Below are positions 8,908 to 42,170 of a DNA stretch of 42,170 nt, piece after piece. Location of the stretch: IMG/VR virus record IMGVR_UViG_3300040806_001422, positions 1 through 42,170 of that record. One strand, written 5' to 3'. Within the stretch, counting starts at the first letter, position 1; each line of letters starts with the position of its first letter. The notes under the pieces are model-generated. The model saw only the letters and a list, made by a program, of their open reading frames with translations. It was not told where the DNA came from and ran no database searches. This DNA comes from a virus. A program made the translations under genes and the position numbers.

Positions 8908-9252
8908 ATGGACGAGAAGTTATCAAAAGCCCTTGAATTTGGCAATTATTCTGCTACACTAGAAAATCAAAAGCGTATGTTACAAGAAAAATTTGTAACA
9001 GATACGATTTATTTCTGCGCAGGTGGACAATTTACTATTACTAAAGAACTTATTAATTATTGCCAAACATTACTAGGTAGCGGACAAGAGTCGTTTATAT
9101 TAATTGATGATAATAGTATTCCTATTGAAATACAAAGTATTGAAAAATTTAAAGAAGAAATTTTTGACAAGTACTTTGTTGCTCTTAATGAATATCATAC
9201 GTCTTATCAAAAATTAACAAAAAGTAGGTCCGTTGACGGATTAGTAGAATGA
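8908..9252 (+). CDS. Conserved phage protein of unknown function, 114 aa
   Basis: A small soluble, mostly helical, acidic protein (MDEKLSKALEFGNYSATLENQKRM...). It contains an FTITKELINYC segment and an ILIDDNSIPIEI strand, and ends KSRSVDGLVE. I recall similar proteins near the structural genes of marine T4-like phages, without known function. It opens the accessory island: its ATG lies 8 bases after a late-promoter-like box with no ribosome-binding site, and its stop overlaps the next start (ATGA). It may be more a virion-region gene than part of the modification system. Confidence 0.7.
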   Translation: MDEKLSKALEFGNYSATLENQKRMLQEKFVTDTIYFCAGGQFTITKELINYCQTLLGSGQESFILIDDNSIPIEIQSIEKFKEEIFDKYFVALNEYHTSYQKLTKSRSVDGLVE

Positions 9253-10088
9253 CAAATGGGATTCTTTTATTTGCATACAATAATGAACAAATAGATTACG
9301 TTGCTCAAGCGTGTTATCTAGCCAATCGTGTAAAACAGTACATGAACCTTCCTACTACTTTAGTTACTGATGATAAAGCAAGGGTTGAAAAATATTATAA
9401 TGGTAATGAAGTATTTGATAACATTATAGAAGTTTCATCTATTAGATATAATAAAAAACGCTATCATGATGGAGCGTTGTCGTTCAAACTTCTTAACTTT
9501 AAGAATTTTAATAGAGATAATGCTTATAATGTTTCGCCATACGATCAAACACTAGTACTAGATACTGACTATATTATTTCCAATGACTTATTACTAAGTT
9601 GTTTTAATAGTGTTAATGACTTAATGGTTTATTCAAAGAGTCTTGATATTTCGGGATGGAGAGAAGCAGAAGAATTTGATTTAATAAGTGAAACTAGTAT
9701 AAAATTTTATTGGGCCACAGTTGTGTTTTTTAGAAAAACAAAATCTAATAAAGTGTTCTTTGATCTAATAACACATATTAAAGAAAATTATGAACACTAT
9801 CGAAACTTGTATCAACTTACTAACAGTGTTTATAGGAATGACTTTGCTTTTAGTATAGCAATACATATTATGGCAGGACACTATGGATCTGGATTCGTAA
9901 AAGAATTACCAGGAAAGATGATTTATAGTACAGGTAAAGATATCTTAGAAAAAATTAAAGATGATGAATTAACTTTATTAGTTGAAAAACAAAATAGATC
10001 GGGAGAGTATACCCTTTTAAAATCTAAAGGCTTAAACTTACACGTAATGAATAAGTTTAGTTTGAATAGGAACATTTCTAATGCCTAA
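9249..10088 (+). CDS. Putative GT-A glycosyltransferase
   Basis: A 279-residue protein with the layout of a GT-A glycosyltransferase. The N-terminus (ILLFAYNNEQIDYVAQACYLANRV) is followed by TTLVTDD. The metal-binding DxD is in LVLDTDYIISNDL (D105, D107), and a late His (GLNLHVMNKF) is where GT8-like enzymes hold a metal-binding His. It probably moves a sugar from a nucleotide donor to an unknown acceptor in the cytoplasm. It overlaps its neighbours by 4 and 8 bp and is followed by a clear paralog. Donor and acceptor cannot be predicted. Confidence 0.65.
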   Translation: MTNGILLFAYNNEQIDYVAQACYLANRVKQYMNLPTTLVTDDKARVEKYYNGNEVFDNIIEVSSIRYNKKRYHDGALSFKLLNFKNFNRDNAYNVSPYDQTLVLDTDYIISNDLLLSCFNSVNDLMVYSKSLDISGWREAEEFDLISETSIKFYWATVVFFRKTKSNKVFFDLITHIKENYEHYRNLYQLTNSVYRNDFAFSIAIHIMAGHYGSGFVKELPGKMIYSTGKDILEKIKDDELTLLVEKQNRSGEYTLLKSKGLNLHVMNKFSLNRNISNA

Positions 10089-10902
10089 CTTTACTTTTCT
10101 TGCACAAAATAATGAACAAGACAATTATGTACGTCAAGCAGAATTACTAGCAATGAGTATTAGAAAAACTAATCCAGACAGTAAAATTTGCTTAATAACT
10201 AATGAAGACACTGAATGGATTAAAGAAGGACTGTTTGACGATATTGTACCTATTCCGTGGGAAGATAAAGCAGATGAGCACAAATGGAAAGTACAAAACA
10301 GATGGAAAATTTATCATGCTTGTCCATATGACGAAACTTTTGTATTAGATACAGACATGATAGTATGTCATAACTTAACACATTGGTGGAATTTAATGCA
10401 AAATTATGATGTATTTTATACAACTAATGTAACAGATTATAAACAGTGTAAACTTAATGTAACATACTATAGAAAAATGTTCGAAGCAAACAACTTACCA
10501 AACATCTATGTCGCATTACATTATTTTAAAAAGTCAGAATTTGCAAAACAGTTTTATACTTGTTTAGAAGAAGTAATGAAAAACTGGGAATACTATTATG
10601 AAAGGTATGCACCTAAGAAAATGCAAAAGTTTTTAAGCGTTGACGTATGTACAGCAATAGCAATTAGAGTGTTAGGTGTTGAACATATAGTTACAAATAC
10701 TAAACTACCATTTCCTACGTTTGTACATATGAAACCGTATGCACAAAGTTGGAAAATACAAACAACAAAATGGCAAGACCGTGTTAGTTGCTTTATTGAT
10801 GATAAACAACAACTTAAAATAGGTGGACATTTGCAGGACACAGTGTTTCATTATACTGAAAAAGATTTTACGGAGAAATATTATGACAGATTCAATAATT
10901 AA
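10081..10902 (+). CDS. Putative GT-A glycosyltransferase, paralog of the upstream gene
   Basis: A 273-residue paralog of the preceding protein. It has the same opening (FTFLAQNNEQDNYVRQAELLA), a KICLITNED strand and a DxD in FVLDTDMIVCHNL (D90, D92). A VHMKPYAQSW segment gives a late His. Family knowledge suggests a retaining GT8-like fold; the substrate is unknown. The ATG overlaps the upstream stop by 8 bp and the next gene starts inside its 3-prime end. Two adjacent diverged copies suggest that two successive sugars, or two acceptors, are handled. Confidence 0.65.
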   Translation: MPNFTFLAQNNEQDNYVRQAELLAMSIRKTNPDSKICLITNEDTEWIKEGLFDDIVPIPWEDKADEHKWKVQNRWKIYHACPYDETFVLDTDMIVCHNLTHWWNLMQNYDVFYTTNVTDYKQCKLNVTYYRKMFEANNLPNIYVALHYFKKSEFAKQFYTCLEEVMKNWEYYYERYAPKKMQKFLSVDVCTAIAIRVLGVEHIVTNTKLPFPTFVHMKPYAQSWKIQTTKWQDRVSCFIDDKQQLKIGGHLQDTVFHYTEKDFTEKYYDRFNN

Positions 10903-11437
10903 TTTTCCAGTTAAAGTTCAGAAATTTAAAGAACATAGTGTTCTTAAAGAATTATTATTAACAGCAATTAATGAACAAAAAGAAGTAGAACATTTAATCG
11001 GACCTAATAATGATATTACTCGTTGTGATTGGCAACCTGCAAGATTTAATACTAACCGACGTTGGGTAAAGGATATAAAAGATCCGTTAACTGAACATAT
11101 TGCAAAGTGGGCAGAGTCGTTTGGATATGCAAATTTTAAAGTGCTTGAAATTTGGTTTCAACAATATGCACAGAACAGTAAACACTCTTGGCACACACAT
11201 GGCGGAAATTTTACGTGTGTGTATTATCTAGATTTGCCTAAAGATACTCCACGTACTCAGTGGATTAATCCTACAACTCTAAATGAAGAAACTTTTTGTG
11301 TTGCAGAAGGTGATATTATTATATTTCCAAGTTGGTTAATACATAGAGCACCACAAAATGAATCAAAAAATATGAAAACAATTATTTCATGGAACATTGA
11401 AGTTGGGATATCTGATTTCTACGGAGAAGGTCAATGA
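10883..11437 (+). CDS. Putative 2OG-Fe(II) oxygenase (2OG-FeII_Oxy_5 type)
   Basis: I chose the ATG at 10883, which has a GGAG site 8-11 bases upstream, over an in-frame start 60 bp earlier that lies deeper in the upstream gene. The 184-residue protein has the iron ligands of the Oxy_5 group: HTH (H104, H106) in SKHSWHTHGGNFTCVYYLD and a distal His (H154) in IIIFPSWLIHRAPQNE. The 2OG-binding Arg expected about ten residues later appears as a Lys (KNMKTIISWN), so cofactor binding may differ. Family members hydroxylate or otherwise oxidise C-H bonds using O2 and 2-oxoglutarate. Substrate unknown. Confidence 0.7.
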   Translation: MTDSIINFPVKVQKFKEHSVLKELLLTAINEQKEVEHLIGPNNDITRCDWQPARFNTNRRWVKDIKDPLTEHIAKWAESFGYANFKVLEIWFQQYAQNSKHSWHTHGGNFTCVYYLDLPKDTPRTQWINPTTLNEETFCVAEGDIIIFPSWLIHRAPQNESKNMKTIISWNIEVGISDFYGEGQ

Positions 11438-12009
11438 CAATGTCTTGGAAAGAAGTTCCGTTAAAGCCATCACAAACTTGGCTTGATTTTGATTTAGATA
11501 GTGGTGTAATAAAAACTATCGGAGCAACACCGTTAAGTAAACATAGTATCGAAGTTGACTATGAGCAAGTTAAAGATTTAATTGAAGGTAAAGTATATTT
11601 TAAACACTTTTTAGTTCAATTTAATCCAACTAGCACAATGTATGAGTTGGTTAATAAGCACGACGAAAAGAAATACGAATATAACGTTAATTCTAGTTTA
11701 TATAAAATACAAAAAACTAATAAAGCAGATATTATAATTTGTAAAAATTATAAAAAGAAACAATGGGAATTAAAGTTTGGTGATTTATTTGCAAAAACAT
11801 TGCTCAAAAACAACGTTACATTACAAACAGTAAAGCATTTTAGTGTAGTAGAAAAGAATAACCCATTTGTACTATACAGAACATTAACATTCAATTTAGC
11901 GTCAAATAATTTAGTCTTGCAATTTAATGATAATGATGCTATAATAGAATTTGACATTTATACGAATAAACTTTTTAACAGTTATGGGATACAAATTGAA
12001 CAAGATTAA
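11434..12009 (+). CDS. Hypothetical protein, 191 aa
   Basis: I do not recognise this protein. It is soluble, lysine- and asparagine-rich, with many predicted short strands (ADIIICKNYKKKQWELKFGD, LYRTLTFNLASNNLVLQF). It has no membrane segment, signal or catalytic motif. It is coupled to the upstream oxygenase by an ATGA overlap and the next gene begins 26 bp before its end, so it is made as part of the same operon. Possibly a beta-sandwich accessory or virion-associated protein; that is speculation. Confidence 0.6.
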   Translation: MTMSWKEVPLKPSQTWLDFDLDSGVIKTIGATPLSKHSIEVDYEQVKDLIEGKVYFKHFLVQFNPTSTMYELVNKHDEKKYEYNVNSSLYKIQKTNKADIIICKNYKKKQWELKFGDLFAKTLLKNNVTLQTVKHFSVVEKNNPFVLYRTLTFNLASNNLVLQFNDNDAIIEFDIYTNKLFNSYGIQIEQD

Positions 12010-12883
12010 GATACAAGATGTTGATATTATCTTTCTAAGTTATGATGAGCCTAATGCTGAAGAAAATTGGGCAGACTTACAACGGAAGATCCCTTGGGCA
12101 AAACGTGTACACGGAGTAGAAGGATCAGATGCGGCACACAAAGCCTGTGCAGATTTATCTGAAACAAAACATTTTGTAACTGTAGATGGTGACACTATTG
12201 TCGACCCTAAGTTTATGCAAGTTGAATTAGACTTAGATAAGTTAGGTGTAGACGATGACTATCAATTTAGTTGGTGTGGTAAAATTGATGTTAACGGACT
12301 TATGTACGGCAATGGAAGTTTAAAGATGTGGACAAAAGATTTTGTTAAAAATATGAAGACACATGAAAACACTGACGGATCAGATGAAACAAGTATTGAA
12401 TTTTGTTACTTTGACAACTATTATCAATTAAATGAAAACTATAGTAAAAGTATTATTACAGCAACTCCACATCAAGCATGGCGTGCTGGATTCCGTGAAG
12501 GCGTTAAAATGAGTCTGGATAGGGGAAAGCCAACAGAAGATATTAATTCATTATGGTGGCAAAATAGACACAGACTTTTTATTTGGCAAATGGTAGGTTG
12601 TGATGTTCCTAATGGTATCTGGGCGGTATATGGCGCACGACTTGGAACATATATGAATATGTGTACAGATTGGGATCATACACAGACAAGAGACTTTACT
12701 TACCTCAATGAGTTATGGAAAGAACACGAGACTGTTACAGTCGCAGAAGAATGTAAAGAACTAGGAAAGAAACTAATTAATGAATTAGAATTACCTATTG
12801 CCGTTGTTCCGTTTGATAAATTACAAAGTGAATTTTTTAAGACAGTATACATAAACGGCGATAGAGTAATTAGGCGTAAATGA
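11984..12883 (+). CDS. Putative glycosyltransferase-like protein (VDGD family)
   Basis: The conserved part begins DVDIIFLSYDEPNAEENW, so the ATG at 11984 is the likely start; an in-frame ATG at 11951 would add 11 residues and overlap the upstream gene more. The protein (299 aa) has FVTVDGDTIVDPKF, a DxD-like metal site at the place expected in GT-A enzymes, and AAHKACADLSETKHF before it. A paralog at 21282 shares SYxEPxAxxN, AKRV and VxDGDxxxx. Nucleotide-sugar binding is inferred from these motifs only. It is coupled downstream (ATGA) to a small membrane protein. Confidence 0.55.
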   Translation: MGYKLNKIKIQDVDIIFLSYDEPNAEENWADLQRKIPWAKRVHGVEGSDAAHKACADLSETKHFVTVDGDTIVDPKFMQVELDLDKLGVDDDYQFSWCGKIDVNGLMYGNGSLKMWTKDFVKNMKTHENTDGSDETSIEFCYFDNYYQLNENYSKSIITATPHQAWRAGFREGVKMSLDRGKPTEDINSLWWQNRHRLFIWQMVGCDVPNGIWAVYGARLGTYMNMCTDWDHTQTRDFTYLNELWKEHETVTVAEECKELGKKLINELELPIAVVPFDKLQSEFFKTVYINGDRVIRRK

Positions 12884-13125
12884 AAATAAGATATTATCAT
12901 AATATTGATGGTTGGCGTTGGCTAGGATTTGTATTAGCAATGGTTAGTGCATTTTTATTAAGTGGCGGTAATCCTGCAATACAATGGTTAGGATGGGGCA
13001 TCGCTTGCTTTAGTTGTAGCATATGGATTTACATGGGATGGAAAGATGGTGATACTCCTAGGGCATTAATGGAGTTAATGTATTTGCTTCTTGCTATAAG
13101 AGGCGTTTGGAATTGGGTTCAATGA
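12880..13125 (+). CDS. Small membrane protein, three predicted helices, 81 aa
   Basis: An 81-residue hydrophobic protein with three likely membrane helices: about residues 13-30 (WLGFVLAMVSAFLLSG), 33-53 (IQWLGWGIACFSCSIWIYMG) and 60-79 (LMELMYLLLAIRGVWNWV). It has no signal peptide or known motif. The charged N-terminus MKIRYYHN suggests an inside orientation. It is the only clear membrane protein in the island, coupled by ATGA overlaps to the glycosyltransferase-like gene before it and the radical SAM gene after it. It could tether enzymes to the membrane or move a small product; neither is shown. Too large and membrane-bound to look like a RiPP precursor. Confidence 0.75.
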   Translation: MKIRYYHNIDGWRWLGFVLAMVSAFLLSGGNPAIQWLGWGIACFSCSIWIYMGWKDGDTPRALMELMYLLLAIRGVWNWVQ

Positions 13126-14489
13126 GTGAATTAGACAGAATTAAAACAGTAATGCCAGAAATTGATAAAATTTCTCCTTCATTCTGCTTGGCTAAATGGC
13201 ATCATGTTACTATCTATTTGCAAACAGGCGAAACACACAGTTGTTATCATCCAGCACCTCACAAGATTCCTTTAGAAGGGTTAATAGATAATCCAAGTCA
13301 ATTGCATAATACTCCGCAAAAGAAACTCGAACGTAAAGAAATGTTAGCAGGATTAAAACCTAGTGGTTGTCAATACTGTTGGAACATTGAATGTATGGGT
13401 AAAGATTACATTAGCGATAGACATATTAAAACAGCAAGTATTCATACACCAGAACGTATTGAAGAAATTACAAGTAATCCTTGGGACTATAATATTAATC
13501 CCGAATATATTGAAGTAAACTTTAGTAATGAGTGTAATTTTAAATGCGGTTATTGTCATCCTAAGTTTAGTAGTAGATATTGGAACGAAATTAAACAACA
13601 CGGACCATATAAAGATAGTACAGCACATCGTAACGATATTGACTGGATAGAATTATATGAAGAAGAATCTAATCCTTATGTAGAAGCATGGTGGAAATGG
13701 TGGCCTGAAGTTAGTAAGACATTGAACATCTTACGTGTTACAGGTGGAGAGCCTTTGATGCATAAAAGTACTTGGAGGCTTTTTGAAGAATTAAAATCAA
13801 ATCCAAAGCCGCATTTAAATATTGAACTTAACAGCAATATGGGTGTAAAGCCTGCACTAGTTAAAAAATTAACACAAGTCGTAAAAGAACTTAGAGAAAC
13901 TAATTGTATTGCAAGTTTTAAATTATATACAAGTATAGATACATGGAGTAACCGTGCAGAATATACACGTACTGGATTAGATTTAAAAATTTGGGAAACA
14001 AATTTAGATTATTATCTATCCAACACACCCTGGCCTGTAACATTTATGATTACATTTAACATATTCTCTGTTACAAGTTTCAGTTCTTTGTTAGAAAAAA
14101 TATTAGAATGGCGTAAAAAATATAATACAGATGAACAAACAAAATGGCAACGTATAAGGTTTGATACGCCATACCTAACTGATCCTATTCAGTTTGATAT
14201 AAACATACTTCCTAAAGATGAATTCATGCCTTATATGAAAAAGCACTTAGAGTTTATTGTTAATAATTTAGATGACACAAACAGAACTAAATTTAGTAGT
14301 TTGGAATATGAAAGATTTAGGAGAGTAGTTGACTATATGGAAACAACAAACTATTCTGAGAAAAAACTATTAAACGGAAGAAAAAACTTTCATACATGGT
14401 TTAGAGAATACGATAAAAGACGCAATACTAATCTTGTAGAAACGTTTCCTGAATTTAAAGAATTTTACAATTTTTGTAAAACTTGCTAA
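13122..14489 (+). CDS. Radical SAM enzyme with N-terminal twitch/SPASM-like domain
   Basis: The start at 13122 gives an ATGA overlap; an in-frame ATG at 13107 is also possible. The 455-residue protein has auxiliary-cluster cysteines first: C22 (FCLAKW), C41 (HSCYHP), and C83 and C86 (SGCQYCW). The radical SAM motif CxxxCxxC follows at C138, C142, C145 (ECNFKCGYC), then TGGEPL as the SAM-binding GGEP motif. The domain order is the reverse of classical SPASM enzymes. Cysteine spacing matches the gene at 35068 almost residue for residue. It ends LVETFPEFKEFYNFC, a tail shared with its paralogs. Reaction unknown; the family does radical C-H chemistry on peptides, sugars or small molecules. Confidence 0.88.
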   Translation: MSELDRIKTVMPEIDKISPSFCLAKWHHVTIYLQTGETHSCYHPAPHKIPLEGLIDNPSQLHNTPQKKLERKEMLAGLKPSGCQYCWNIECMGKDYISDRHIKTASIHTPERIEEITSNPWDYNINPEYIEVNFSNECNFKCGYCHPKFSSRYWNEIKQHGPYKDSTAHRNDIDWIELYEEESNPYVEAWWKWWPEVSKTLNILRVTGGEPLMHKSTWRLFEELKSNPKPHLNIELNSNMGVKPALVKKLTQVVKELRETNCIASFKLYTSIDTWSNRAEYTRTGLDLKIWETNLDYYLSNTPWPVTFMITFNIFSVTSFSSLLEKILEWRKKYNTDEQTKWQRIRFDTPYLTDPIQFDINILPKDEFMPYMKKHLEFIVNNLDDTNRTKFSSLEYERFRRVVDYMETTNYSEKKLLNGRKNFHTWFREYDKRRNTNLVETFPEFKEFYNFCKTC

Positions 14490-15600
14490 CTAATTTCTGA
14501 TTGTGTATTAATACGTCTTCTATATCTTGTAAGTTACAATCATTATTAGCAATGTGTTCAATTAATTCAAAAATAGCAATTAACCTATCTGTAGGATTTT
14601 GAATACTGTCGTAGTCTTCATTCCACAAACTATCAAATGTTTTAAATCCAAGTTCTTTAATATATTTTAAAGTATGCGGCGGTCCAACCATAACAAACGG
14701 TCTACCATATAACATTGCATTAAATGTTTTTTCACTAAAGTTAGCAGTAGGTTGTGCAAAACGTGTTTCGTTAACAATAGCACACATACTATCTAAATAA
14801 AATGCTTCTAGTCCTCTACCTTGAGGAGCAAACACAGGCCATTGCTTCATGCTGGCATCAGTTGTTTTTGCATTTTTATAATCTAATACATATGGAATAT
14901 TTTGATTTAATGTATCGATATTTTGTTTAATTATTGTTTCGTAATTAGTACCACTCCATTTGTCTAGTTCAATCCAAGTGCGGTCCATTAATAATTCATA
15001 GTTAGTTTTAAAGTTCCAACTTAAATAACAATCTTTGTCTACAAGAAATGCAGATAGTAAATGACGATGTTTAGTATAACGCCAGTTTGGACAAATAAAT
15101 TTTTTATTATAATTTAAATCAAGTGTAGTATTACCACCACAAAAGAAATCACGTAAAAATATATCCATGCAAAATAAGTTTAATGTTGGATAATTTTTAG
15201 CATAATATTTTTGTATATTATAATCTCCTGTATATACATTGATATTTTTAATACTGTTCTTTTGTTGCCAATTAACAATACTATCTAATTCGTCTGCATA
15301 AAGATTATCAAATGTATTAAATTCACTATAGAAATGGTTGTTATGGATCGTATCTTTTATATATGGACTAACAGGCTCGTACAAGTAGATATCAACACCC
15401 TTACTTAATTTTTTATATGTTTTAGGAGACAGTTCTAAACTGTCAAACTGTTTGATATGATTAGTACCTGTGTAAACAAAAGTAGGACGAGTTGTATCTT
15501 TTAATAAAGATTCACGGAATAGTTCAGTTAACATTCCTTTATCTTTGTTGCGTATATTTTTCTGTGGAATATTTTTCCAGAATAAGTCCTGGACAAACAT
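14455..15600 (-). CDS. Putative GT-B-like glycosyltransferase, 381 aa
   Basis: A 381-residue soluble protein. The C-terminal third carries ANFSEKTFNAMLYGRPFVMV, then GPPHTLKYIKELGFKTF and SLWNEDYDSIQNPTDR. This is a block I associate with uncharacterised glycosyltransferases in marine phages and bacteria; it resembles the (S/T)EKT-x(4)-P-I-x(3)-P-F loop near the donor site of fucosyltransferase/exostosin-type enzymes. The gene at 18339 carries the same block. It is last in the leftward operon, and its 3-prime end overlaps the convergent radical SAM gene by 35 bp, through a palindromic hairpin. The ATG overlaps the upstream stop (TAATG). Substrate unknown. Confidence 0.5.
   Translation of the reverse strand: MFVQDLFWKNIPQKNIRNKDKGMLTELFRESLLKDTTRPTFVYTGTNHIKQFDSLELSPKTYKKLSKGVDIYLYEPVSPYIKDTIHNNHFYSEFNTFDNLYADELDSIVNWQQKNSIKNINVYTGDYNIQKYYAKNYPTLNLFCMDIFLRDFFCGGNTTLDLNYNKKFICPNWRYTKHRHLLSAFLVDKDCYLSWNFKTNYELLMDRTWIELDKWSGTNYETIIKQNIDTLNQNIPYVLDYKNAKTTDASMKQWPVFAPQGRGLEAFYLDSMCAIVNETRFAQPTANFSEKTFNAMLYGRPFVMVGPPHTLKYIKELGFKTFDSLWNEDYDSIQNPTDRLIAIFELIEHIANNDCNLQDIEDVLIHNQKLVSKFYKNCKIL
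14464..14482. other. Perfect 8-bp inverted repeat in convergent gene overlap
   Basis: TTTTACAA (14464-14471), a TTT loop, then TTGTAAAA (14475-14482). It lies inside the 35-bp overlap of two convergent genes and could act as a weak two-way terminator, although no T-run follows on either strand. Confidence 0.5.
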
Positions 15601-18303: not shown

Positions 18304-18308
18304 ACACA

Positions 18309-35035: not shown

Positions 35036-35040
35036 AAGTA

Positions 35041-35048
35041 TATTTATA
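35041..35048 (-). promoter_or_regulatory. Perfect T4-type late promoter TATAAATA, leaderless
   Basis: The minus strand reads TATAAATA. The box ends at 35041, so the predicted +1 is 35035, which is the A of the ATG of the CSRN radical SAM gene. No ribosome-binding site is present. This is the same geometry as at 18309-18316. Confidence 0.72.
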
Positions 35049-35052
35049 GATA
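35045..35052 (+). promoter_or_regulatory. Candidate divergent late promoter TATAGATA
   Basis: TATAGATA matches 7 of 8 bases and overlaps the opposite-strand TATAAATA by four bases, so two divergent boxes are interlocked. The predicted start near 35058 leaves a 10-nt leader without a clear ribosome-binding site before the ATG at 35068. Confidence 0.35.
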
Positions 35053-35067
35053 ACTGCGTACTTAATT

Positions 35068-36363
35068 ATGAAACAAGAAACATTATCAGAAGCAATAAAA
35101 AAAGCCAACCTTGGCGACAAGGTAATGGACGATAATGCTATGTGTGCAATGAAATGGATTCATTGTTATGTGCACCTCAGCGAAGGTATTGTAAAGAATT
35201 GCCACAACGTACCACAACGTTTTATCACACAAGAAGAACTAGACAAGTATGGTAAAGATGTGTTTATGAAACATCCATACGAACTAGAGCGTAGACAAGA
35301 AAAACTAGACAACATAAGACATAAAGATTGTAGTGCTTGTTGGCGCAACGAAAAACGCGGAGTAAGAAGTCCAAGATTACCCGGAAAGTATTTTGAGTTT
35401 CATCGTGAGCGTTTTGAAAATCCTGCAGATATATTAGAACCGTTACCTAGTCAACTTGAAGTATATTTTAATAACACTTGTGATTTAAAATGTCAATATT
35501 GTAACGATGTTTTTAGCAGTCAGTGGGAAGTTGAGAATCGTAAGTTTGAAGTAGCACCAAGGCAAAAACATACAGCACCAGATGGCTTTGCAGATACATT
35601 TTATGAATGGTTAGATGATGCTGTTGACAACGTGTTACAATATTATATTTTAGGTGGAGAGCCTTTAATACAAAATGAATTGTATGATTATCTTGATAGA
35701 CTAATTGAATTATTTAGAAAGAAATCAAACAAGTTTAATATTAAACCTGTTATTATTTTAATTAGCAACGGCAACACTCCAGAAGCATACCTAAACAAGT
35801 GGTTTGAAAAGGCTACTGAGTTAGAAAAATATGCCAGTGTTCAAATGGATATTAGTATGGAAAGTTACGGAGAAAAAGCAGAATTTATTCGTACTGGCTT
35901 AAACTGGAATAGATTTGCCAGTAATGTAAAACGTATTATGGAGTTTGCAAAAGGTAAAGATTTTAGATTAAGGTTTAGTACAACTCACAGTGCTTTAAGT
36001 ATTACAAGTTGTTTAGATTTTTTACAATGGTTAAAACAATTAAAAGAAGAAACAGGATGTGATGTTGATTTAATTAGAAGCAATGTTTCATATCCAGTGC
36101 AACTAGCACCGTGGATGCTAACAAAAGAATTTAAACCTTACATTAATGACATTGTTAAATGGATTAATAAACAAGCACCTGAATGGAATTACTATGCTGA
36201 CTTTATGAAAACAATTAAAAAGAGTTTTGGAAAACATTCAAACTCAGATAAGATTGAAGTTGTTAAATGGGTAGAGCGTACAAAGATAAGACGTAACTTA
36301 GATTTAGTAGAAACATTCCCTGAACTAGAATCGTGGTATAAGTATTGTCAAAATCACCGCTGA
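35068..36363 (+). CDS. Radical SAM enzyme with N-terminal twitch-like domain
   Basis: A 431-residue protein. Auxiliary cysteines C26 (MCAMKW), C45 (VKNCHNV), and C88 and C91 (DCSACWRNE) precede the radical SAM motif C138, C142, C145 (TCDLKCQYC). ILGGEPLI is the SAM-binding motif, and ISMESYGEKAEFIRTGL the middle block. The spacing is nearly identical to the enzyme at 13122, its closest relative here. It ends LVETFPELESWYKYC, nearly the same tail. It opens the last rightward unit. The pair may do the same reaction on different substrates or be successive duplicates. Confidence 0.88.
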   Translation: MKQETLSEAIKKANLGDKVMDDNAMCAMKWIHCYVHLSEGIVKNCHNVPQRFITQEELDKYGKDVFMKHPYELERRQEKLDNIRHKDCSACWRNEKRGVRSPRLPGKYFEFHRERFENPADILEPLPSQLEVYFNNTCDLKCQYCNDVFSSQWEVENRKFEVAPRQKHTAPDGFADTFYEWLDDAVDNVLQYYILGGEPLIQNELYDYLDRLIELFRKKSNKFNIKPVIILISNGNTPEAYLNKWFEKATELEKYASVQMDISMESYGEKAEFIRTGLNWNRFASNVKRIMEFAKGKDFRLRFSTTHSALSITSCLDFLQWLKQLKEETGCDVDLIRSNVSYPVQLAPWMLTKEFKPYINDIVKWINKQAPEWNYYADFMKTIKKSFGKHSNSDKIEVVKWVERTKIRRNLDLVETFPELESWYKYCQNHR

Positions 36364-36369
36364 TAAATA
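36362..36369 (+). promoter_or_regulatory. Candidate late promoter GATAAATA
   Basis: GATAAATA matches 7 of 8 bases and overlaps the stop codon of the upstream gene. The predicted +1 near 36375 leaves about five bases before the ATG at 36380, which would exclude the AGG at 36371-36373 from the transcript. Confidence 0.4.
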
Positions 36370-36379
36370 TAGGTACAAC

Positions 36380-37159
36380 ATGAAGTACATATCAAATTAC
36401 AACCCAACACTAATTACACCACAATTCGTAGATGGACTAGAATATGACATTATTGAACTTCCATGGAAACTAGACGTAGATAAACTACAGGAGTGGTACA
36501 GAAAAGTAGACAGTACATATGACAACTTATATTTTAGTTGGCGTAAAGAGCAATATCTTAAAGACAAGTATCATTTAAAAAATATTGAAACAGCATTTGC
36601 TGGTGAAGTAGGAACTGAAGGTAGAGGTGTACACGATGAAGGGTATCATATTGTGCGTTACATTAAAGAACAGTTTAAACACCCAGAAGAAATACTTGTA
36701 ATGGAAGTTAGTTGGCCTGTTGAAAAAGAAATTCCATGTCCGCCTAAATGGGCAGGCAGAGAAGATTTATATCCTGAACTTTCTACTGATGCACCTAAAC
36801 GTGTGCAAGAAAAATTTAAGTTTGGGTATTTTAAAGAACTAGTAGAATACTTTGGAGAAGATATTTTGCGTGATGTTAGTATTAGGAAACATCAACCAAA
36901 TGCAGTATTAGGAAAGCATATAGATGGTCCTAATGTACAGAGATTACATATTCCTGTGACTACCGGCGAAGGTGCTATATTTGCATACGGAGAAAACTTG
37001 GAAAGAGAATATAACTTACAGTTAGGTAAAGCATATATTATTAACGCCGCAGTACCACACGGTACATTTAATCGTAGCGGTATTGATCGCAGTCATTTAC
37101 AAAGCAAGCCACATACAGATGCTATTGTTAGAATGTGTAATATGGAGATAGTGCTTTGA
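36380..37159 (+). CDS. 2OG-Fe(II) oxygenase, aspartyl hydroxylase-like, 259 aa
   Basis: A 259-residue protein with a full ligand set: H180 and D182 in LGKHIDGPN, H227 in NAAVPHGTFN and R237 in GIDRSHL for 2-oxoglutarate. RLHIPVTTGEGAIF and LEREYNLQLGKAY are strands shared with the genes at 39315, 40986 and 41573. This resembles the aspartyl/asparaginyl beta-hydroxylase group. The N-terminal 150 residues (helical, with KHPEEILVMEVSWPVEKEIP and CPPKW) are shared in outline with the protein at 41573. Probably hydroxylates a peptide or small molecule; substrate unknown. First of an array of oxygenase genes. Confidence 0.78.
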   Translation: MKYISNYNPTLITPQFVDGLEYDIIELPWKLDVDKLQEWYRKVDSTYDNLYFSWRKEQYLKDKYHLKNIETAFAGEVGTEGRGVHDEGYHIVRYIKEQFKHPEEILVMEVSWPVEKEIPCPPKWAGREDLYPELSTDAPKRVQEKFKFGYFKELVEYFGEDILRDVSIRKHQPNAVLGKHIDGPNVQRLHIPVTTGEGAIFAYGENLEREYNLQLGKAYIINAAVPHGTFNRSGIDRSHLQSKPHTDAIVRMCNMEIVL

Positions 37160-37851
37160 AAGAACTAGAACAGTACTGGCAAGAAAACAACAAGGAATAC
37201 GAATTTAAGTATCCAGAGCAGTTCGATCCTAAATGGATTGTAATGGAAAGTGGCTGGCCTTTTTTTAAATTAAGTGCATTAGACAATCAACCTTGGAAAG
37301 AGATGCACATTGAGGCAGAAGCGTTACTTGAATATTTTAAAGATCACAGAACTGACTATGGAGAAGGTTGGAAGAGTCTTACACTACACGGACTTAGTGA
37401 AGATACACAAACACTAAACAGTTATGGCGATCGTGCTGAAACTATCAAACAGTTGGACTGGACTTGGGTAGCAGAACAATGCCCTGTAACTAAAAAGTTT
37501 TTAACAGATGTGTGGCCTGCAGAGTTTTTAAATCGTGTGCGTTTTATGTTACTAGAGCCGGGTGGATATATACTTCCGCATCAAGATAGAGCCGATGAGG
37601 AAAAACGTTTAAGTGTTTGTAACATCAGTTTAAACAATCCAGAAGGTTGCGAGTTTGTAATGAAAAATCAAGGGCGTGTACCGTTTGAAGATAAAGGCAG
37701 TGCGTTCTTAATGGATATTTCAAATGTACACAGTGTATGGAATCGTAGTAATGAGCCTCGTATTCATATGATTATTCATTATGAACTAGGTAAACGTATT
37801 CGCGACTTTTTCTATGTGCTAAGACAAAGTTATTATACTAATAGAGGTTAA
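37156..37851 (+). CDS. 2OG-Fe(II) oxygenase, 231 aa, TTG start
   Basis: Starts with TTG at 37156, overlapping the upstream stop as TTGA; GGAG lies about nine bases upstream. The 231-residue protein has H142 and D144 in GGYILPHQDRADE, H192 in DISNVHSVWN and R202 in EPRIHMIIHY, a complete iron/2OG set. CNISLNNPEGCEFVMKNQG forms core strands. It is of the aspartyl hydroxylase-like type but less close to the other three in this block. A single base separates it from the next gene. Substrate unknown. Confidence 0.77.
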   Translation: MKELEQYWQENNKEYEFKYPEQFDPKWIVMESGWPFFKLSALDNQPWKEMHIEAEALLEYFKDHRTDYGEGWKSLTLHGLSEDTQTLNSYGDRAETIKQLDWTWVAEQCPVTKKFLTDVWPAEFLNRVRFMLLEPGGYILPHQDRADEEKRLSVCNISLNNPEGCEFVMKNQGRVPFEDKGSAFLMDISNVHSVWNRSNEPRIHMIIHYELGKRIRDFFYVLRQSYYTNRG

Positions 37852-37852
37852 C

Positions 37853-39322
37853 GTGAAAGATTGGAATAGCATTACTGTAGATAGATATTGGGAACAAATT
37901 AAAGTACCCAATGATGTTGCTATTGGCATATTAGATATCTCACGAGATATTGATAGTCGTACTGTTGCTAAACGCAGTTTTGATATGACTTACTTTTATG
38001 TTAATCGTATGATTAAAATGGGTATGTGTACTTTTGTTGGGTTTGAAAAACGTGTAGAAACTATATTAGAAAATGCTCTAGCAAAAAACAAAAAGTATTG
38101 TATGGTTGCTTGTCAAGGTTTATTGTTATATAGAGGTCCTAGTTTAATTACACAGAGCCTACGTTATGCAGACAACAATCCAAACTTTTTTGTTGTAGGG
38201 CATATTATGGACAAAACAAAACAGCACTATCTAACTAAAGGTGCTTATCCAGGTTTACACAGACAATATCTATTTGTTAATTTAGAAACTTGGAAACAGT
38301 TAGGTAAACCAGCCTTTGATGAAATGGGAATATTCAAAGATAGAAAACCTGTACTACAAAATTATCAATTAAGCAATGAAACTGTACACAGTGATTATAC
38401 GCCTGATTGGATACAAGGTACGCAAGGTGAAACAGAATATCAAATAACTTCTGATGGAAGTAACTGGATTGATATTGCTTGTCGTAACGGAATACGTATT
38501 GATAACTTAGATAATGATATGCGTGACTGTAAAGTATTTCTATATCCTTATAGCGATACAAAAGAGTTAGAGGAAGTATGGTATGATAAAGACATTAACA
38601 AAATTGATAAACTTTCTAACCAATCGCAAAAAGCCTGGCTTAGAAAACTACAGTACCAAGAGTACATTGAAAAAGACAGAGTGTATGCGTTTAACACAGA
38701 AACACTATCTGCTGAAGGAGTAAGAACAAATGGAAAAGTTATAGATCATTTGTTTACTGCCGCGGCAGGTTTTAAACCTCTTGCTATATTAAATGCTAAC
38801 GGGTTTCACAATAATACAACAGTACATTATTTTGATTGGTGCAAATCAAGTTTAAACTATAAAAAGCATTTATTAGAAACTTGGGACGGTTATGATTTAG
38901 ATGCTTGGTTATTAGAACACGACTTAGATTATAACTTTAGTTCTACATATAGAGGAAACTATAAACAGTTTTGGGAACAAGAATTAAAAGACTTTGGTGG
39001 TAGTTTAGCATTTCAAAGACTCTGGGAAAGATACAAAAAATTAAAACATGAATTTCATGTTATTGATATTGTAAACGAAAGCGATAAACTGTTTGATGAA
39101 ATTAACAAAACACACGGTACAAAGGTATTATGGACTACTAACATTTGGAGTAGTGAAATGTTACACTGGAATGTTGAGCCAGAAGTAATAGAACAAAAGT
39201 GGTTAGAGTTTGAAAAGCGTGTACCAGATGATTTAGTTTTATATGGACATGATTACGTAGCAGTTGATATGAACACAAGATTAAGGAGTGGTGTAAAACT
39301 AACACACTTGCATTATGATTAA
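37853..39322 (+). CDS. Large hypothetical protein, 489 aa, possibly two domains
   Basis: Starts with GTG at 37853 after AGAGG, six bases upstream. I cannot assign a function. The N-terminal half contains KKYCMVACQGLLLYRG, NPNFFVVGHIMDK and YPGLHRQYLFVNLETW, a block I associate with uncharacterised phage proteins near glycosyltransferases. The C-terminal half (from about 265) has VYAFNTETLSAEGV, TAAAGFKPLAILNANGFHNN, TVHYFDWCKSSLNYKKHLLE and VLWTTNIWSSEMLHW, an alternating pattern suggesting a Rossmann-like fold. No DxD or SAM loop is certain. Lies between two oxygenase genes and overlaps the second by 8 bp. Confidence 0.6.
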   Translation: MKDWNSITVDRYWEQIKVPNDVAIGILDISRDIDSRTVAKRSFDMTYFYVNRMIKMGMCTFVGFEKRVETILENALAKNKKYCMVACQGLLLYRGPSLITQSLRYADNNPNFFVVGHIMDKTKQHYLTKGAYPGLHRQYLFVNLETWKQLGKPAFDEMGIFKDRKPVLQNYQLSNETVHSDYTPDWIQGTQGETEYQITSDGSNWIDIACRNGIRIDNLDNDMRDCKVFLYPYSDTKELEEVWYDKDINKIDKLSNQSQKAWLRKLQYQEYIEKDRVYAFNTETLSAEGVRTNGKVIDHLFTAAAGFKPLAILNANGFHNNTTVHYFDWCKSSLNYKKHLLETWDGYDLDAWLLEHDLDYNFSSTYRGNYKQFWEQELKDFGGSLAFQRLWERYKKLKHEFHVIDIVNESDKLFDEINKTHGTKVLWTTNIWSSEMLHWNVEPEVIEQKWLEFEKRVPDDLVLYGHDYVAVDMNTRLRSGVKLTHLHYD

Positions 39323-40391
39323 AACAGTTACATATTCTAAACAAGGTATACTAGACTATGTTAAAAATATTGACATAGCAAATACACCTGACTATTTTAT
39401 AAGTGTGTCAACAAGTCACGGACCAGAAAGTTTTCGTTTATTTGAAGGTGCGTATCATAATGTTATTAGTTTGTTTTTTGATGATGTAGAAGTAGATTGT
39501 TGGAAAGACATAGAAGATGGCAGACGTGTTTGGTGTAATGCTATGACAGAACAGCAAGCCACAGAACTGTTAAGTTTTATTAACAGTATTCCAAATGATA
39601 CAACAGTACATATTAATTGTAGTGAAGGACAGTCCCGCTCACCCGCTATTGCACAGTTTATTAATGAACATAGAAACAATGTAAAAGAAAATAATCCTCT
39701 AGTTAATCAACACGTATTAAAACTATTACAGGAAGCAACAGGGTATAAACGTTATATTGAAAAACATGACGAAGTAAAGTTAGGTTGGAAAATTAAAAAA
39801 TGGTTCCCAGTTGATATTAATAAAATACAAAATTGGTATTATAGTTTAGAAGAAAGATACAGTGATTGGAAATTTATTGTAGGAGAAAATCATCATATAT
39901 GGAAATTTCCTATTACAGACCCAGAAGGCAAAACAGGACATCGCTTAATGGATGATACAGCATATTATACACTTTGTTGGAATAGTGATGAGCCAGGCCC
40001 TAAGCCATTTGAACAAGGGTGTGCTAAAGACGAATATAAAGATAATGATGATGACAATCTAAATCCTCGTATGTGCTTTGACGGTTATGCTTTAGACATT
40101 GTACAAGGTTTACCTGTACGTAGTAAAAAATGGTTAGTAACTATTCACACTCCGGGTACTAAACTAATTACACATCAAGACGCACCAGACAAGATTAGAG
40201 TACATATTCCTATACACACAAATAATAATAGTAATTGGATAATTGACGGTGAAGAATATCATATGGAACCCGGCTGGGCATATCTTGTTAATACAACAGT
40301 TCCACACAGTGTAGAGAACAAAGGGTCTACTGATAGAATACATTTATATGGTAAAGTATGGACAGAAGATGTAAGGAAGTTAAACTTATGA
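39315..40391 (+). CDS. Fusion: cysteine phosphatase + 2OG-Fe(II) oxygenase
   Basis: A 358-residue two-domain protein. Residues about 25-145 look like a dual-specificity/tyrosine phosphatase: the P-loop is INCSEGQSRSP with C102, R108 and S109 (Cx5R), and FFDD at about 54-57 is a candidate general-acid region. The usual His before the Cys is Asn. From about 155 to the end is an aspartyl hydroxylase-like oxygenase: H287 and D289 in LITHQDAPDK, VHIPIHTNNN, H331 in TTVPHSVEN and R341 in STDRIHLYG. No frameshift is visible at the join. I know of no described protein with this pair of domains. It could remove a phosphate and oxidise the same molecule. Confidence 0.78.
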   Translation: MIKTVTYSKQGILDYVKNIDIANTPDYFISVSTSHGPESFRLFEGAYHNVISLFFDDVEVDCWKDIEDGRRVWCNAMTEQQATELLSFINSIPNDTTVHINCSEGQSRSPAIAQFINEHRNNVKENNPLVNQHVLKLLQEATGYKRYIEKHDEVKLGWKIKKWFPVDINKIQNWYYSLEERYSDWKFIVGENHHIWKFPITDPEGKTGHRLMDDTAYYTLCWNSDEPGPKPFEQGCAKDEYKDNDDDNLNPRMCFDGYALDIVQGLPVRSKKWLVTIHTPGTKLITHQDAPDKIRVHIPIHTNNNSNWIIDGEEYHMEPGWAYLVNTTVPHSVENKGSTDRIHLYGKVWTEDVRKLNL

Positions 40392-41002
40392 AAGTTGTAA
40401 TTACTGGAGGTAGAGATAGCGGAATTAAACCTGGTGTACATACTATGAACAGTTGGTTACATGATTACTTTAGTGAAGGTAATGAAGTAATACAATTGAG
40501 TAGAGAAACAGGATATGATTTTGATAAAGACTACGACAAGTGTGTTGAGATAGCAAGAACAGCAGATATATTTGTCAATAGTGCTTGTGTTAACGATTAT
40601 CAAATTCGCTTCTTAAATGACGTTTACGGTTATGTTCCCTACTTATTAACTATTGGAAGTATTGCAGGTGAATTCTTAGAAGTTCCTCAAGGATATGATA
40701 ATCATCCTAACTATGTTGAAGTTAAGAATAAATTAAAGCAACGTTGTAAATGGATCCAACTAGAACAAATGGATAATCAAACAACTAAATTATTACATTT
40801 GAATATTACAGAAACTTGTGATACTAAGTATAACGTTATAGGATTAGAAAAAACAGATTTAAATAAGGTACTAGACTTTTGGTTTGAGAATCCTATTATG
40901 TCAAATATTGATATGAGATTCTTTACAGAAAGTTATCATAAAGAATATAAACGCAATAAAGTACAAAGGATTATAGATCACTACAATGATAAGAGAAGTT
41001 AA
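40388..41002 (+). CDS. Short SDR-type NAD(P)-dependent oxidoreductase
   Basis: Start ATG 40388 overlaps the upstream stop as ATGA; a frame 30 bp longer exists but runs into the oxygenase gene. The 204-residue protein has a Rossmann start (VVITGGRDSGI), an NSA motif at 64-66 in place of NNAG, S91 in TIGSIAGE, and Y109 and K113 in NYVEVKNK, a plausible SDR Ser-Tyr-Lys set. It is shorter than most SDRs (about 250). It probably oxidises or reduces a sugar or alcohol in the pathway. Overlaps the next oxygenase by 17 bp. Confidence 0.65.
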   Translation: MKVVITGGRDSGIKPGVHTMNSWLHDYFSEGNEVIQLSRETGYDFDKDYDKCVEIARTADIFVNSACVNDYQIRFLNDVYGYVPYLLTIGSIAGEFLEVPQGYDNHPNYVEVKNKLKQRCKWIQLEQMDNQTTKLLHLNITETCDTKYNVIGLEKTDLNKVLDFWFENPIMSNIDMRFFTESYHKEYKRNKVQRIIDHYNDKRS

Positions 41003-41576
41003 AACACTTAACACAACAGTTGACATTAATGAATTGCAAGACTACTATAAGCAATTAGTAAATAGTCACCAAGACTTGTGTTGGAGATATAAAGATAATG
41101 TTAGTGAAGGCGTTGGCGGACACGTACTTGACAATGCTTATGGTTGGGCATTACAAAGTAATCTTGATGATTTAACATTACCTTGTCCTCCGTACAATGT
41201 TACTGAAGAACGCAAAATGCATCCTTATAAAGATACTAAATTAATGTTTGGCATTGCTCGTAAATTACAAGATGCGTTTCCATTTGCACATCAGTTTAGT
41301 GTAGTTGTACACCCTCCAGGAACTTTTATTAACTTTCATAGCGATAGCGATAATTATTTAAAAGTACATATTCCTATTGAAACTAATAGCAAAGCATATT
41401 TTCAATTTCAACCAATGCGTAGATTTGTTTTGCCAGCAGACGGAAGTATGATTCTAGTAAATACTAATATCAAACACGGTACATACAACGAAGGTGATAC
41501 AGATAGAGTACACTTATTTTTTAAGATACCTATTGATAAAGAGAATGAAGTAGTAGGAATGGAAGGTAAGATATGA
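40986..41576 (+). CDS. 2OG-Fe(II) oxygenase, aspartyl hydroxylase-like, 196 aa
   Basis: A 196-residue paralog of the oxygenase domain at 39315. H118 and D120 are in FINFHSDSDN, VHIPIETNSKAYF follows, H164 is in TNIKHGTYN and R174 in DTDRVHLFF. The N-terminal LDNAYGWALQ and CPPYN segments also match the other members. Iron and 2-oxoglutarate ligands are complete. Coupled to the next oxygenase by ATGA. Substrate unknown. Confidence 0.78.
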   Translation: MIREVKTLNTTVDINELQDYYKQLVNSHQDLCWRYKDNVSEGVGGHVLDNAYGWALQSNLDDLTLPCPPYNVTEERKMHPYKDTKLMFGIARKLQDAFPFAHQFSVVVHPPGTFINFHSDSDNYLKVHIPIETNSKAYFQFQPMRRFVLPADGSMILVNTNIKHGTYNEGDTDRVHLFFKIPIDKENEVVGMEGKI

Positions 41577-42170
41577 GAGTAATACAAAATTACGATCCTA
41601 AAGATATTACAATGGATTTATTGTATAATGACGACTCGTGGGGTGCTATTGAATTAAATGTCAAACTAGATGTTTATGAATTGCAATCTTATTATAATAC
41701 TATACAACAAGAACACAACTATCAATATTTTGACTTTCAAAACTTTCCTGAGCGGTTAACTATTGAAGTTAGTAAGCAGTATATGGAATTAGGTTACTGT
41801 GGATACTATTGCGGACCAATTAGCGGATATACTCTTGCTTGGCCTAAAGAAAGATACGAACCACTACCACCACCTAGTCAAGCAAACGTAGATATGTTTC
41901 CTGAAACACTTGATCCAGAGTTTTATGAAAAGTGTAATGTGTTACCTCGTTTTAGATTTGGCTATATGAATACACTAATTGATATGTTAGGTGAAGACAG
42001 TTTTAAGCAGTGTATTATTACAGAACACGGACCTGGTGCAACCATTCAAACACATAAAGATTCAAATGCTAAGAAGTTACACATACCACTAAGAACAAAT
42101 TCACAAGCGGTGTTTACCTTTGGTGAAAACAGAGAATTAAAATTTAATATGCGTGTAGGTAAAGTATACA
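41573..42170 (+). CDS. 2OG-Fe(II) oxygenase, aspartyl hydroxylase-like, cut by right edge
   Basis: The frame runs from the ATG at 41573 through the last base without a stop, so the 3-prime end lies outside the window. The 199 visible residues start MRVIQNYDPKDITM, similar to MKYISNYNPTLITP of the protein at 36380. They contain H161 and D163 in TIQTHKDSNAKKLHIPL and FTFGENRELKFNMRVGKVY. The distal His and Arg should follow just past the edge. The closest relative in the window is the 36380 gene. Substrate unknown. Confidence 0.75.
   Translation, partial: MRVIQNYDPKDITMDLLYNDDSWGAIELNVKLDVYELQSYYNTIQQEHNYQYFDFQNFPERLTIEVSKQYMELGYCGYYCGPISGYTLAWPKERYEPLPPPSQANVDMFPETLDPEFYEKCNVLPRFRFGYMNTLIDMLGEDSFKQCIITEHGPGATIQTHKDSNAKKLHIPLRTNSQAVFTFGENRELKFNMRVGKVY

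Follow-up and report, generated by a model that had tools for sequence, protein, structure and literature searches.

Published accounts of clustered radical S-adenosylmethionine (SAM) genes in T4-like phages date back to 2010, yet no function has been demonstrated for them. The sections of the 2010 report available to us give 11 radical SAM genes for phage CP220 and 12 for CPt10, each with an interchangeable cluster of five such genes and a glycine amidinotransferase (Timms 2010, PMC2853527); our recount in CP220 (177.5 kb) was likewise 11. Excerpts of a later study describe a 183-kb T4-like marine genome, TARA_ERS488813_N000010, with 12 radical SAM genes and an A-type iron-sulphur (Fe-S) carrier (Nishimura 2017, PMC5332604), and radical SAM cassettes are contained in the host recognition clusters of pelagi- and cyanomyophages according to excerpts of Zaragoza-Solas 2020 (PMC7029224). 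Here we describe an island of genes, g01 to g39, that follows the tail-fibre genes of IMG/VR record IMGVR_UViG_3300040806_001422, a record of 42,170 bases classed as linear that was analysed over its whole length and is called the window below. The island is real, neither chance nor an artefact, and encodes ten radical SAM proteins spanning 23 kb, a highly unusual concentration, as well as eight oxygenase-type proteins. The original prediction for this DNA held that no described phage system has such a density of radical and oxygen-dependent chemistry; given the counts above this is wrong as worded. The oxygenase part does stand out, with three to eight matches to the AspH family (PF05118) in each of seven carriers of the conserved module described below and none in CP220, in the cultured Synechococcus phage S-SCSM2R (PQ898602; 244 kb, two radical SAM proteins), in the divergent carrier G433 or in each of 14 well-known control genomes.

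A collinear module of radical SAM enzymes and oxygenases

The island consists of two modules (positions are those of the window; genes lie on the forward strand unless marked reverse). Module A (g01 to g17) follows the fibre genes and holds GT8-like transferases, a StrB1-like amidinotransferase, a short DegT aminotransferase and a UDP-glucose dehydrogenase (UGD). Module B (g18 to g39) holds nine radical SAM proteins, six oxygenases, two beta-propellers, a kinase and g35 (37853-39322; 489 aa), a protein of no known family that forms the core of the module. A search seeded with g35 recovered 74 loci. Clustering of their g35 proteins at 90% identity left 33 groups, which means that some of the loci are not independent of one another. 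At 63 of the 66 loci with at least 8.5 kb before g35, those present of g23, g24, g25, g26, g27, g28, g31, g34 and g35 had the order and strand seen in the window, where g24 to g28 and g31 are reversed, and the three discordant loci differed only by having g24 on the opposite strand. Co-occurrence was scored in the 49 loci with at least 18 kb: g27 and g28 were found in all 49, g34 in 45, g23 in 43, g25, g26, g36 and g38 in 39 each, g22, g24 and g39 in 38 each, g21 in 35, g31 in 28 and g20 in 20, the figures for genes farther from g35 being lowered by limited flank. Thirteen module B genes were each present in at least 35 of the 49 loci, and the co-occurrence of the set, proposed in the original prediction as a check, was thus borne out for this module. 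Ratios of dN to dS (Nei-Gojobori counts) were 0.04-0.31 in 58 of 61 gene comparisons with contigs G007 (39 genes, fibres included) and G009 (22 genes); the remaining three were g34, nearly identical in G007, and two with saturated dS. Module B is therefore a co-inherited, collinear set under purifying selection.

The two modules can be separated. Seeding with s6, the last gene of the fibre block, gave 26 loci, not made non-redundant, with g01 in 25, g02 in 24, g08 in 21 and g11 in 20. Contigs G009 and G021 have module B without module A in the contig, and the 260-kb record G427 has module B at 25-44 kb and fib3, s6, g01, g02, g03, g06 and g08 from 135 kb, about 90 kb apart. The window is thus the junction of two units, with a border that is not sharp at g17, since this gene adjoins g18 in G427. 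The island had been taken for one large modification pathway; as a single unit it did not hold, and the part of that claim that stood is that the module B genes are not unrelated single acquisitions. Content varies in module A and in the block g25/g26/g29/g30/g32/g33. Relative to G007, dS was 0.65-2.28 for the fibre genes and g01-g16, 0.38 for g17, 1.5-1.7 for g18-g19, 0.23-0.63 for g20-g33 except g22 (1.19) and g29 (0.84), and 0.03 for g34. This fall over most of g20-g34 is a sign that most of module B (23525-37851) may have been exchanged recently as a block between phages. Identity of g01, g02, g03, g06, g08 and g17 tracked fibre identity (Spearman 0.77-0.96), and the nine module B genes tested tracked it less (0.05-0.76); as the comparison used nine chosen genomes and non-independent pairs, co-divergence of module A with the fibres is suggestive only.

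The count of ten radical SAM proteins made in the original prediction was upheld by Pfam scans, in which all ten matched PF04055. Nine reached its curated cut-off of 29.5 bits (g32 exactly 29.5, g08 29.8), and g31 was 0.3 bit under it with a SPASM domain above its own cut-off; nine matches were recovered when the record was searched in six frames. The CxxxCxxC motif was conserved in ortholog alignments, for g31 in 12 of 13 rows, the remaining row being gapped there. Ortholog sets excluded open reading frames (ORFs) below 0.7 or above 1.6 of the length in the window as well as exact duplicates, and motif alignments excluded rows of less than 30% or more than 99% identity. Numbered 1 to 10 in gene order, the proteins have three architectures. 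An N-terminal twitch or SPASM region is found in g08 (13107-14489), g21 (24474-25814), g24 (27339-28454, reverse), g28 (31193-32227, reverse) and g32 (35068-36363), which at 306, 421, 235, 229 and 221 bits, respectively, all exceed the whole-protein cut-off of NF033640 (170 bits), the other five being below it. A C-terminal SPASM domain is present in g20 (23525-24511) and g31 (34040-35035, reverse), and conserved C-terminal cysteines in g18 (21946-22920; C265, C285, C306 and C311), g23 (26454-27359) and g30 (33088-34059). In a tree drawn from eight contigs and the window, the ortholog groups of g08, g18, g24, g28, g30, g31 and g32 (seven of ten) were clades with support of at least 0.996; those of g20, g21 and g23 were not, probably because best-hit assignment had placed distant paralogs from G020 and G022 in these groups. 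Seven separate clades mean that the set is not one recent expansion, and most of these enzymes look like old, separately kept functions.

Two closer identities were considered and rejected: g30 has a viperin-like model as its nearest NCBIfam match, far under the cut-off (NF038283, 57.9 bits against 180), and the match of g20 to cytosylglucuronate decarboxylase (E 4e-8) was taken as generic radical SAM similarity. Queries with g18, g20 and g21 against 50,697 phage records found at best distant radical SAM relatives, and g35 had no relative there at all; with PDB matches for g35 at chance level only and a structure model of low confidence (predicted local distance difference test, pLDDT, 53), we make no fold claim for it. 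A-type Fe-S carrier genes were found in three of the 28 records searched (G001, G009 and G026). The 157.9-kb contig G433 has 14 PF04055 matches, several under cut-off, a UGD and no AspH match, and may represent another, divergent form of the island.

The eight oxygenase-type proteins, originally placed in about 33 kb, were confirmed with uneven strength; seven have an HxD motif and g04 has HxH. Four pass Pfam cut-offs, namely g04 (10880-11437; PF13759) and, for PF05118, g34 (37156-37851), g36 (39315-40391), which has an N-terminal PHROG 5614 domain that is phosphatase-like by eye, and g38 (40986-41576). The window ends before the second histidine of g39 (41573-42169), and the complete copy in contig G002 (235 aa) passes PF05118 with 33.8 bits. 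The remaining three are weaker: g33 (36380-37159) scores 20.3 against the PF05118 cut-off of 22.6 and is homologous to the g36/g38/g39 group; g22 (25801-26457) matches beta- and proline hydroxylases weakly (E 4e-4), with orthologs in G001 and G008 that pass PF05118 (24.6 and 25.2 bits); and g10 (15600-16091, reverse) has a conserved HxD...H motif and 29% identity (E 1e-20) to an S-SCSM2R protein annotated as a 2-oxoglutarate (2OG)-Fe(II) oxygenase. Some of the motif alignments are thin, with two rows for g36, four for g32, g38 and g39, and five for g33.

Other genes, surroundings and phage identity

Among the accompanying enzymes named in the original prediction, the UGD, amidinotransferase, aminotransferase and propellers stood, the SGNH hydrolases and the methyltransferase had no family match, and matches for the glycosyltransferases and the kinase were weak. 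The amidinotransferase g11 (16081-17049, reverse) aligned over its full length with StrB1 inosamine-phosphate amidinotransferase (E 3.5e-71, 243 bits) and more weakly with AGAT (2e-40); it keeps D158, H206 and C312, which by analogy with AGAT and StrB1 we take to be the catalytic Asp-His-Cys triad. The DegT/StrS aminotransferase g13 (17719-18309, reverse; 196 aa) is short, as were all 22 orthologs kept (194-235 aa against a profile of 360 positions, with a filter that allowed 137-314 aa), and this minimal type may be a distinct active form. The short form also occurs in S-SCSM2R (195 aa). The dehydrogenase g15 (19283-20476) belongs to the UDP-glucose/GDP-mannose dehydrogenase family by Pfam and to UDP-glucose dehydrogenase by PHROG (8e-92). 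The paralogs g02 (9249-10088) and g03 (10081-10902) match glycogenin (GT8) weakly (E 4e-4) and have an invariant DxD motif. An invariant DxD is also present in g06 (11951-12883), glycosyltransferase-like by eye with no library match; its paralog g17 (21282-21968), likewise glycosyltransferase-like, diverges with the fibres, and PDB matches for this pair were at chance level only. Another paralogous pair is g09 (14455-15600, reverse), glycosyltransferase-like by eye only and with no PDB match, and g14 (18339-19286), and a further one is g12 (17042-17722, reverse) and g16 (20473-21294), both SGNH-like in the original prediction, of which g12 has no family match and g16 a weak DUF6473 match under cut-off. 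The rest of module A is g01 (8908-9252; 114 aa), g05 (11434-12009), with no family match, and g07 (12880-13125; 81 aa, hydrophobic). In module B, g19 (22917-23525) is methyltransferase-like by motif only, with no family match and PDB matches at chance level; the reverse-strand paralogs g25 (28421-29554) and g26 (29547-30788) are predicted beta-propellers, g25 by a model (pLDDT 87.7) with Foldseek matches to generic propellers and g26 by homology; g27 (30751-31206, reverse) is a small APH-like kinase under the Pfam cut-off; and g29 (32224-33198, reverse) and g37 (40358-41002) have no functional label. The oxygenases g33, g36, g38 and g39 form a further paralogous set.

The window starts inside a giant baseplate- or tail-type gene, continues with five tail-fibre or structural genes and ends inside g39. 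Its first ORF is the C-terminal end (1-1545; last 514 codons) of the giant gene, which has 4,962 aa in contig G002 and about 4,960 aa in G001 (24274-39156); counted from the ATG at 34, the opening 67 residues of this end share 88% identity with the baseplate wedge proteins of cyanophages of the S-RIM12/Syn33 type. The fibre block (1567-8812) comprises s2 (1567-2181), fib1 (2186-4255), fib2 (4255-6354), fib3 (6388-7866) and s6 (7880-8812). The three fib genes are paralogs, fib3 matches tail-fibre and virion entries of PHROG, and the block is kept beside the island, in agreement with the location next to tail-fibre genes first proposed. Between the two lies a hairpin with T-run resembling an intrinsic terminator (8859-8889, forward; one found against 0.2 expected in shuffles), and an AT-rich TGTAAATA stretch follows it directly before g01 (8859-8900). 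The T4-type late promoters first assigned to the island were weakly supported and were dropped as a strong argument, both motifs being rarer than expected: TATAAATA occurred three times against 9.4 expected and TATAAAT 17 times against 29.7. Two of the three TATAAATA copies do mark divergent junctions, where g13 and g31 start. The motif ATAAATA was found before some genes, in a test that is not clean because A-richness of the coding strand biases it.

Contigs G002 (98.7 kb), G004 (70 kb) and G015 (45 kb) contain DNA near-identical to the window, so its surroundings can be read. Beyond the window end the island goes on with the rest of g39 and, in G002 (83620-87201), with four further genes, which encode a tryptophan halogenase (PF04820), a protein of 190 aa with no convincing family, a truncated AMP-binding enzyme (PF00501; 221 aa) and an Mtd N-terminal-domain protein (PF18454; 431 aa). 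With this last protein on the right and the fibres on the left, the island is bracketed by fibre-type genes. The tryptophan halogenase is also present in G021 and S-SCSM2R. For gp46 and the polymerase gp43 of a related contig, G001 (156.6 kb), the closest matches are in jumbo phages, first Sinorhizobium phage Phosso (47.8% and 50.6%) and then Pseudomonas PA5oct-type phages, Agrobacterium phage Atu_ph07 and 121Q-type phages. Because of these neighbours, and of module B carriers of up to 356 kb, we read the window as a fragment of a T4-superfamily phage, probably of jumbo type, and its relatives suggest that its source and bacterial hosts are probably aquatic. A cyanophage host was considered and rejected: PsbA and PsbD of S-SCSM2R had no match by tblastn in 13 contig sets, none a complete genome, and the window, and the G001 gp46 and gp43 proteins are nearest those of the Sinorhizobium jumbo phage and the others named above. 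The 'moraphage' jumbo lineage was also set aside, its predicted hosts being Bacteroidota and the word 'radical' being absent from its text (PMC12619734).

Candidate product and acceptor

Thirteen module B genes held in fixed order despite strong genome turnover indicate that one product matters to these phages, and we consider a surface-type glycan its probable nature. A product of glycan or envelope type is supported by the UGD, the GT8-like enzymes and bacterial relatives that lie in polysaccharide loci. Three sets of relatives make a surface-type glycan appear the best-supported product class, with the virion or a host polysaccharide as acceptor: the S-SCSM2R cassette, the bacterial loci and sugar genes in G009. 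S-SCSM2R has a row of genes for a glycosyltransferase, a GT25, a glycosyltransferase, a short DegT protein (54% identical to g13), a radical SAM protein, a glycosyltransferase, the 2OG oxygenase (29% to g10), an amidinotransferase (64% to g11) and a GT2. The one close bacterial relative of g11 found (45%), in a betaproteobacterial metagenome-assembled genome, lies in a locus with a Wzz-type chain-length protein, a Wzy_C ligase, a GT2, a NodZ-like transferase, a radical SAM protein, a DegT protein and an epimerase. It was found in a scan in which 15 of 398 Pseudomonadota genomes matched the amidinotransferase at E <=1e-30, all the others much more weakly (E 6e-47 to 3e-32); 12 of the weaker loci, about 3-4 kb each, were examined by ORF length and island profiles only. 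NF033640 matched 338 of the 398 genomes at E 0.001, which is generic radical SAM similarity, and two above cut-off. In one of these two, a locus of contig G103 (L171) has four tandem N-terminal-twitch radical SAM genes, one of them fused to a Wzt-type ABC ATPase with Wzt_C (8579-11143), together with an ABC2 permease, a WbsX glycosyltransferase, a TylF methyltransferase, RmlC and RmlD. Around module B (9147-14777 and 50416-52400), G009 encodes proteins of the DAHP/KdsA family (PF00793), PMM-type HAD and CMP-sugar-synthetase type (PF02348), an A-type Fe-S carrier and members of the 6-pyruvoyl-tetrahydropterin-synthase and Rieske-oxygenase families.

As to the acceptor, we tentatively favour the virion, through a two-module cytoplasmic pathway that would decorate the tail-fibre or receptor-binding apparatus. 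Every catalytic step is modelled on protein families. UGD and DegT would supply a uronic or amino sugar, to which the StrB1-like amidinotransferase would shift the amidino group of arginine, at an amine, yielding a guanidino sugar. Module B enzymes would then tailor the sugar or chain, the radical SAM proteins by C-H epimerisation, dehydrogenation or rearrangement, the oxygenases by hydroxylation, the kinase by phosphorylation and the methyltransferase-like protein by methylation, with the propellers as possible binding scaffolds. Soluble GT8-like enzymes of module A would attach the product to the phage's own tail-fibre or receptor-binding apparatus, where the glycan could take part in host contact or shield it. 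We lean towards a virion acceptor because the island is bracketed by fibre-type genes, the module A genes tested diverge together with the fibres, module B is kept in phages whose fibres differ, and none of the window proteins is clearly a membrane or export protein. Crude hydropathy of the 45 window proteins gave no clear transmembrane helix (highest 19-residue means 1.47-1.61, in g03, g07, g08 and g29), and Pfam scans of the island proteins matched no flippase, polymerase, ligase or initiating-transferase family, which suits soluble acceptors. A broader proposal, which we advance as speculation and consider doubtful in full, is that T4-superfamily jumbo phages have a conserved pathway for glycans of a hitherto undescribed class, guanidinylated and with several C-H modifications, and attach these to their own receptor-binding apparatus; such a glycan would be a natural product of viral making that serves in host contact, module B being a transferable unit for a common building block and module A a phage-specific attachment set. 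A virion glycan, if made, would give host recognition and the decoration of phages a further, chemical level.

Several points weigh against a glycan on the virion. Product, substrate and acceptor are all read from family membership, most glycosyltransferase assignments being weak or by paralogy, and g01, g05, g07, g29, g35 and g37 have no assigned role. The fibre co-divergence may only mean shared ancestry, given nine genomes and ranges that nearly touch, and g17 adjoins module B in G427. The bacterial relatives, one locus each, point both ways, to virions and to host polysaccharide; a second N-terminal-twitch locus (G138) has two neighbours without Pfam match and shows only epimerase-like and GT2-like ORFs by eye; and unrelated causes might also make radical SAM genes common in polysaccharide loci. 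AspH-type oxygenases and SPASM radical SAM enzymes often act on peptides. The S-SCSM2R cassette lies near psbA/psbD and not by tail fibres in the stretch read, and the late-promoter motif is not enriched in the window.

Close behind, though less likely than not, comes remodelling of the host envelope, in which O-polysaccharide or capsule would be modified or capped in the cytoplasm before export and so block superinfection or re-adsorption of progeny to debris. The glycosyltransferases of pelagimyophage host-recognition clusters are interpreted in this way in the available part of one study (PMC7029224). Also in its favour are the relatives of g11 and of the N-terminal-twitch radical SAM proteins in bacterial O-antigen or exopolysaccharide loci, among them the radical SAM protein fused to a Wzt-type exporter ATPase, and the DAHP/KdsA-family, CMP-sugar-synthetase-type and PMM-type genes around module B in G009. 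The Wzt C-terminal domain recognises O-chain ends. Against this reading, host O-chains vary fast while many phages share a conserved module B; module A accompanies the fibres, and export and assembly families went unmatched in the Pfam scans above. Were a host-surface change the outcome, the island would be a large lytic-phage exclusion system. For either acceptor, the relatives in O-antigen-type loci are a concrete biochemical lead, and the genes shared with the cultured S-SCSM2R make part of the reading testable.

Modification of protein or peptide, in which the radical SAM/SPASM and AspH- or prolyl-type enzymes would act on tail-fibre residues or on a small peptide of the ribosomally synthesised and post-translationally modified (RiPP) kind and glycosyltransferases would finish the hydroxylated side chains, seems improbable. 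SPASM or twitch regions in seven of the ten radical SAM proteins and the AspH-family oxygenases are typical of peptide substrates, and a protein is also what glycogenin, the closest relative in GT8, glycosylates; but none of the ten reached the cut-off of any RiPP maturase model (among the best 25 models for three of them), no precursor peptide was identified, though no systematic search was made, and the clear bacterial N-terminal-twitch locus is a polysaccharide locus. Still less likely is metabolic help to the infected cell by a cofactor, nucleotide or osmolyte, that is, by classical auxiliary metabolic genes (AMGs) such as the haem-like AhbD. In the accessible part of a survey of Baltic Sea viruses, genes of this kind are named ahbD, with 261 instances as haem AMGs and both radical SAM domains in only three contigs (PMC9301287). 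None of the ten island enzymes reached the equivalog cut-off of a cofactor model, those for haem, MoaA and QueE included, however, and their neighbours are glycan and fibre genes. Where phage radical SAM genes are catalogued as AMGs for haem or cofactors, the names may be wrong. Some of the 261 Baltic ahbD genes may belong to clusters such as this island.

Two readings are very improbable. Hypermodification of the phage DNA by the oxygenases, radical SAM proteins and glycosyltransferases would recall known pathways, which include radical SAM enzymes, kinases and glycosyltransferases, but TET/JBP (PF12851) was above cut-off in none of 34 records, with two sub-threshold matches of 17 bits, and the oxygenases here are of AspH and PF13759 types in an island by structural genes. 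The other is that a plastic region was pieced together from single acquisitions unrelated to one another. The varying content of module A and of the g25/g26/g29/g30/g32/g33 block and the fall in dS relative to G007 might speak for this, but for module B it is largely refuted by the collinearity and by the presence of g27 and g28 in all 49 loci scored.

Comparison with described systems

The bacterial locus of G103 resembles the island in four tandem NF033640 radical SAM genes with methyltransferases and a glycosyltransferase; it differs in being cellular, in having exporter genes and in showing no oxygenase in 20 kb (Pfam on eight ORFs). S-SCSM2R shares the trio of short DegT protein, 2OG oxygenase and inosamine amidinotransferase, accompanied by a radical SAM protein and five annotated glycosyltransferases. 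It has just two radical SAM proteins and no AspH match in its genome, its cassette is near psbA/psbD in the stretch read, and its links to module B (21 proteins compared) are weak and at family level only, with a radical SAM match to g20 at E 2e-5. The marine genome TARA_ERS488813_N000010, which we liken to the island by description only, is discussed in the accessible text for Fe-S metabolism, with no glycan pathway there (PMC5332604).

The Firehammervirus cluster (CP220, CPt10) has adjacent radical SAM genes and a StrB1/AGAT-type amidinotransferase in T4-like phages, as the island has. CP220 also has two genes whose annotation names a nucleotide-diphospho-sugar transferase domain; their products had no match in the island, g02 and g03 included. 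When 14 of its proteins were compared, the amidinotransferase was 26% identical and the best full-length radical SAM protein 27%; the two sets are not orthologous, with identities of 20-33%, the higher ones over about 100 residues only, and several of the 14 unmatched. The Firehammervirus cluster is also smaller and without AspH oxygenase. Host recognition clusters, as portrayed in the excerpted text, are like the island large, plastic and next to tail fibres, with GT8 and lipopolysaccharide-sugar genes (UDP-glucose dehydrogenase) and radical SAM cassettes (PMC7029224). That text describes them as hypervariable, whereas module B is collinear, has many oxygenases and in one record is separated from the fibres by about 90 kb. 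Such clusters are bounded by VrlC and gp14; here it is the giant 4,962-aa gene that stands ahead of the fibres. No description of module B was found in listings and passages from the open-licence PMC literature, and a subscription paper may describe the island. Clusters of several radical SAM genes linked to an amidinotransferase are thus already known from T4-like phages; what appear to be new are the size of the island, its set of oxygenases and propellers, the strict collinearity of module B and the link to bacterial O-antigen-type loci.

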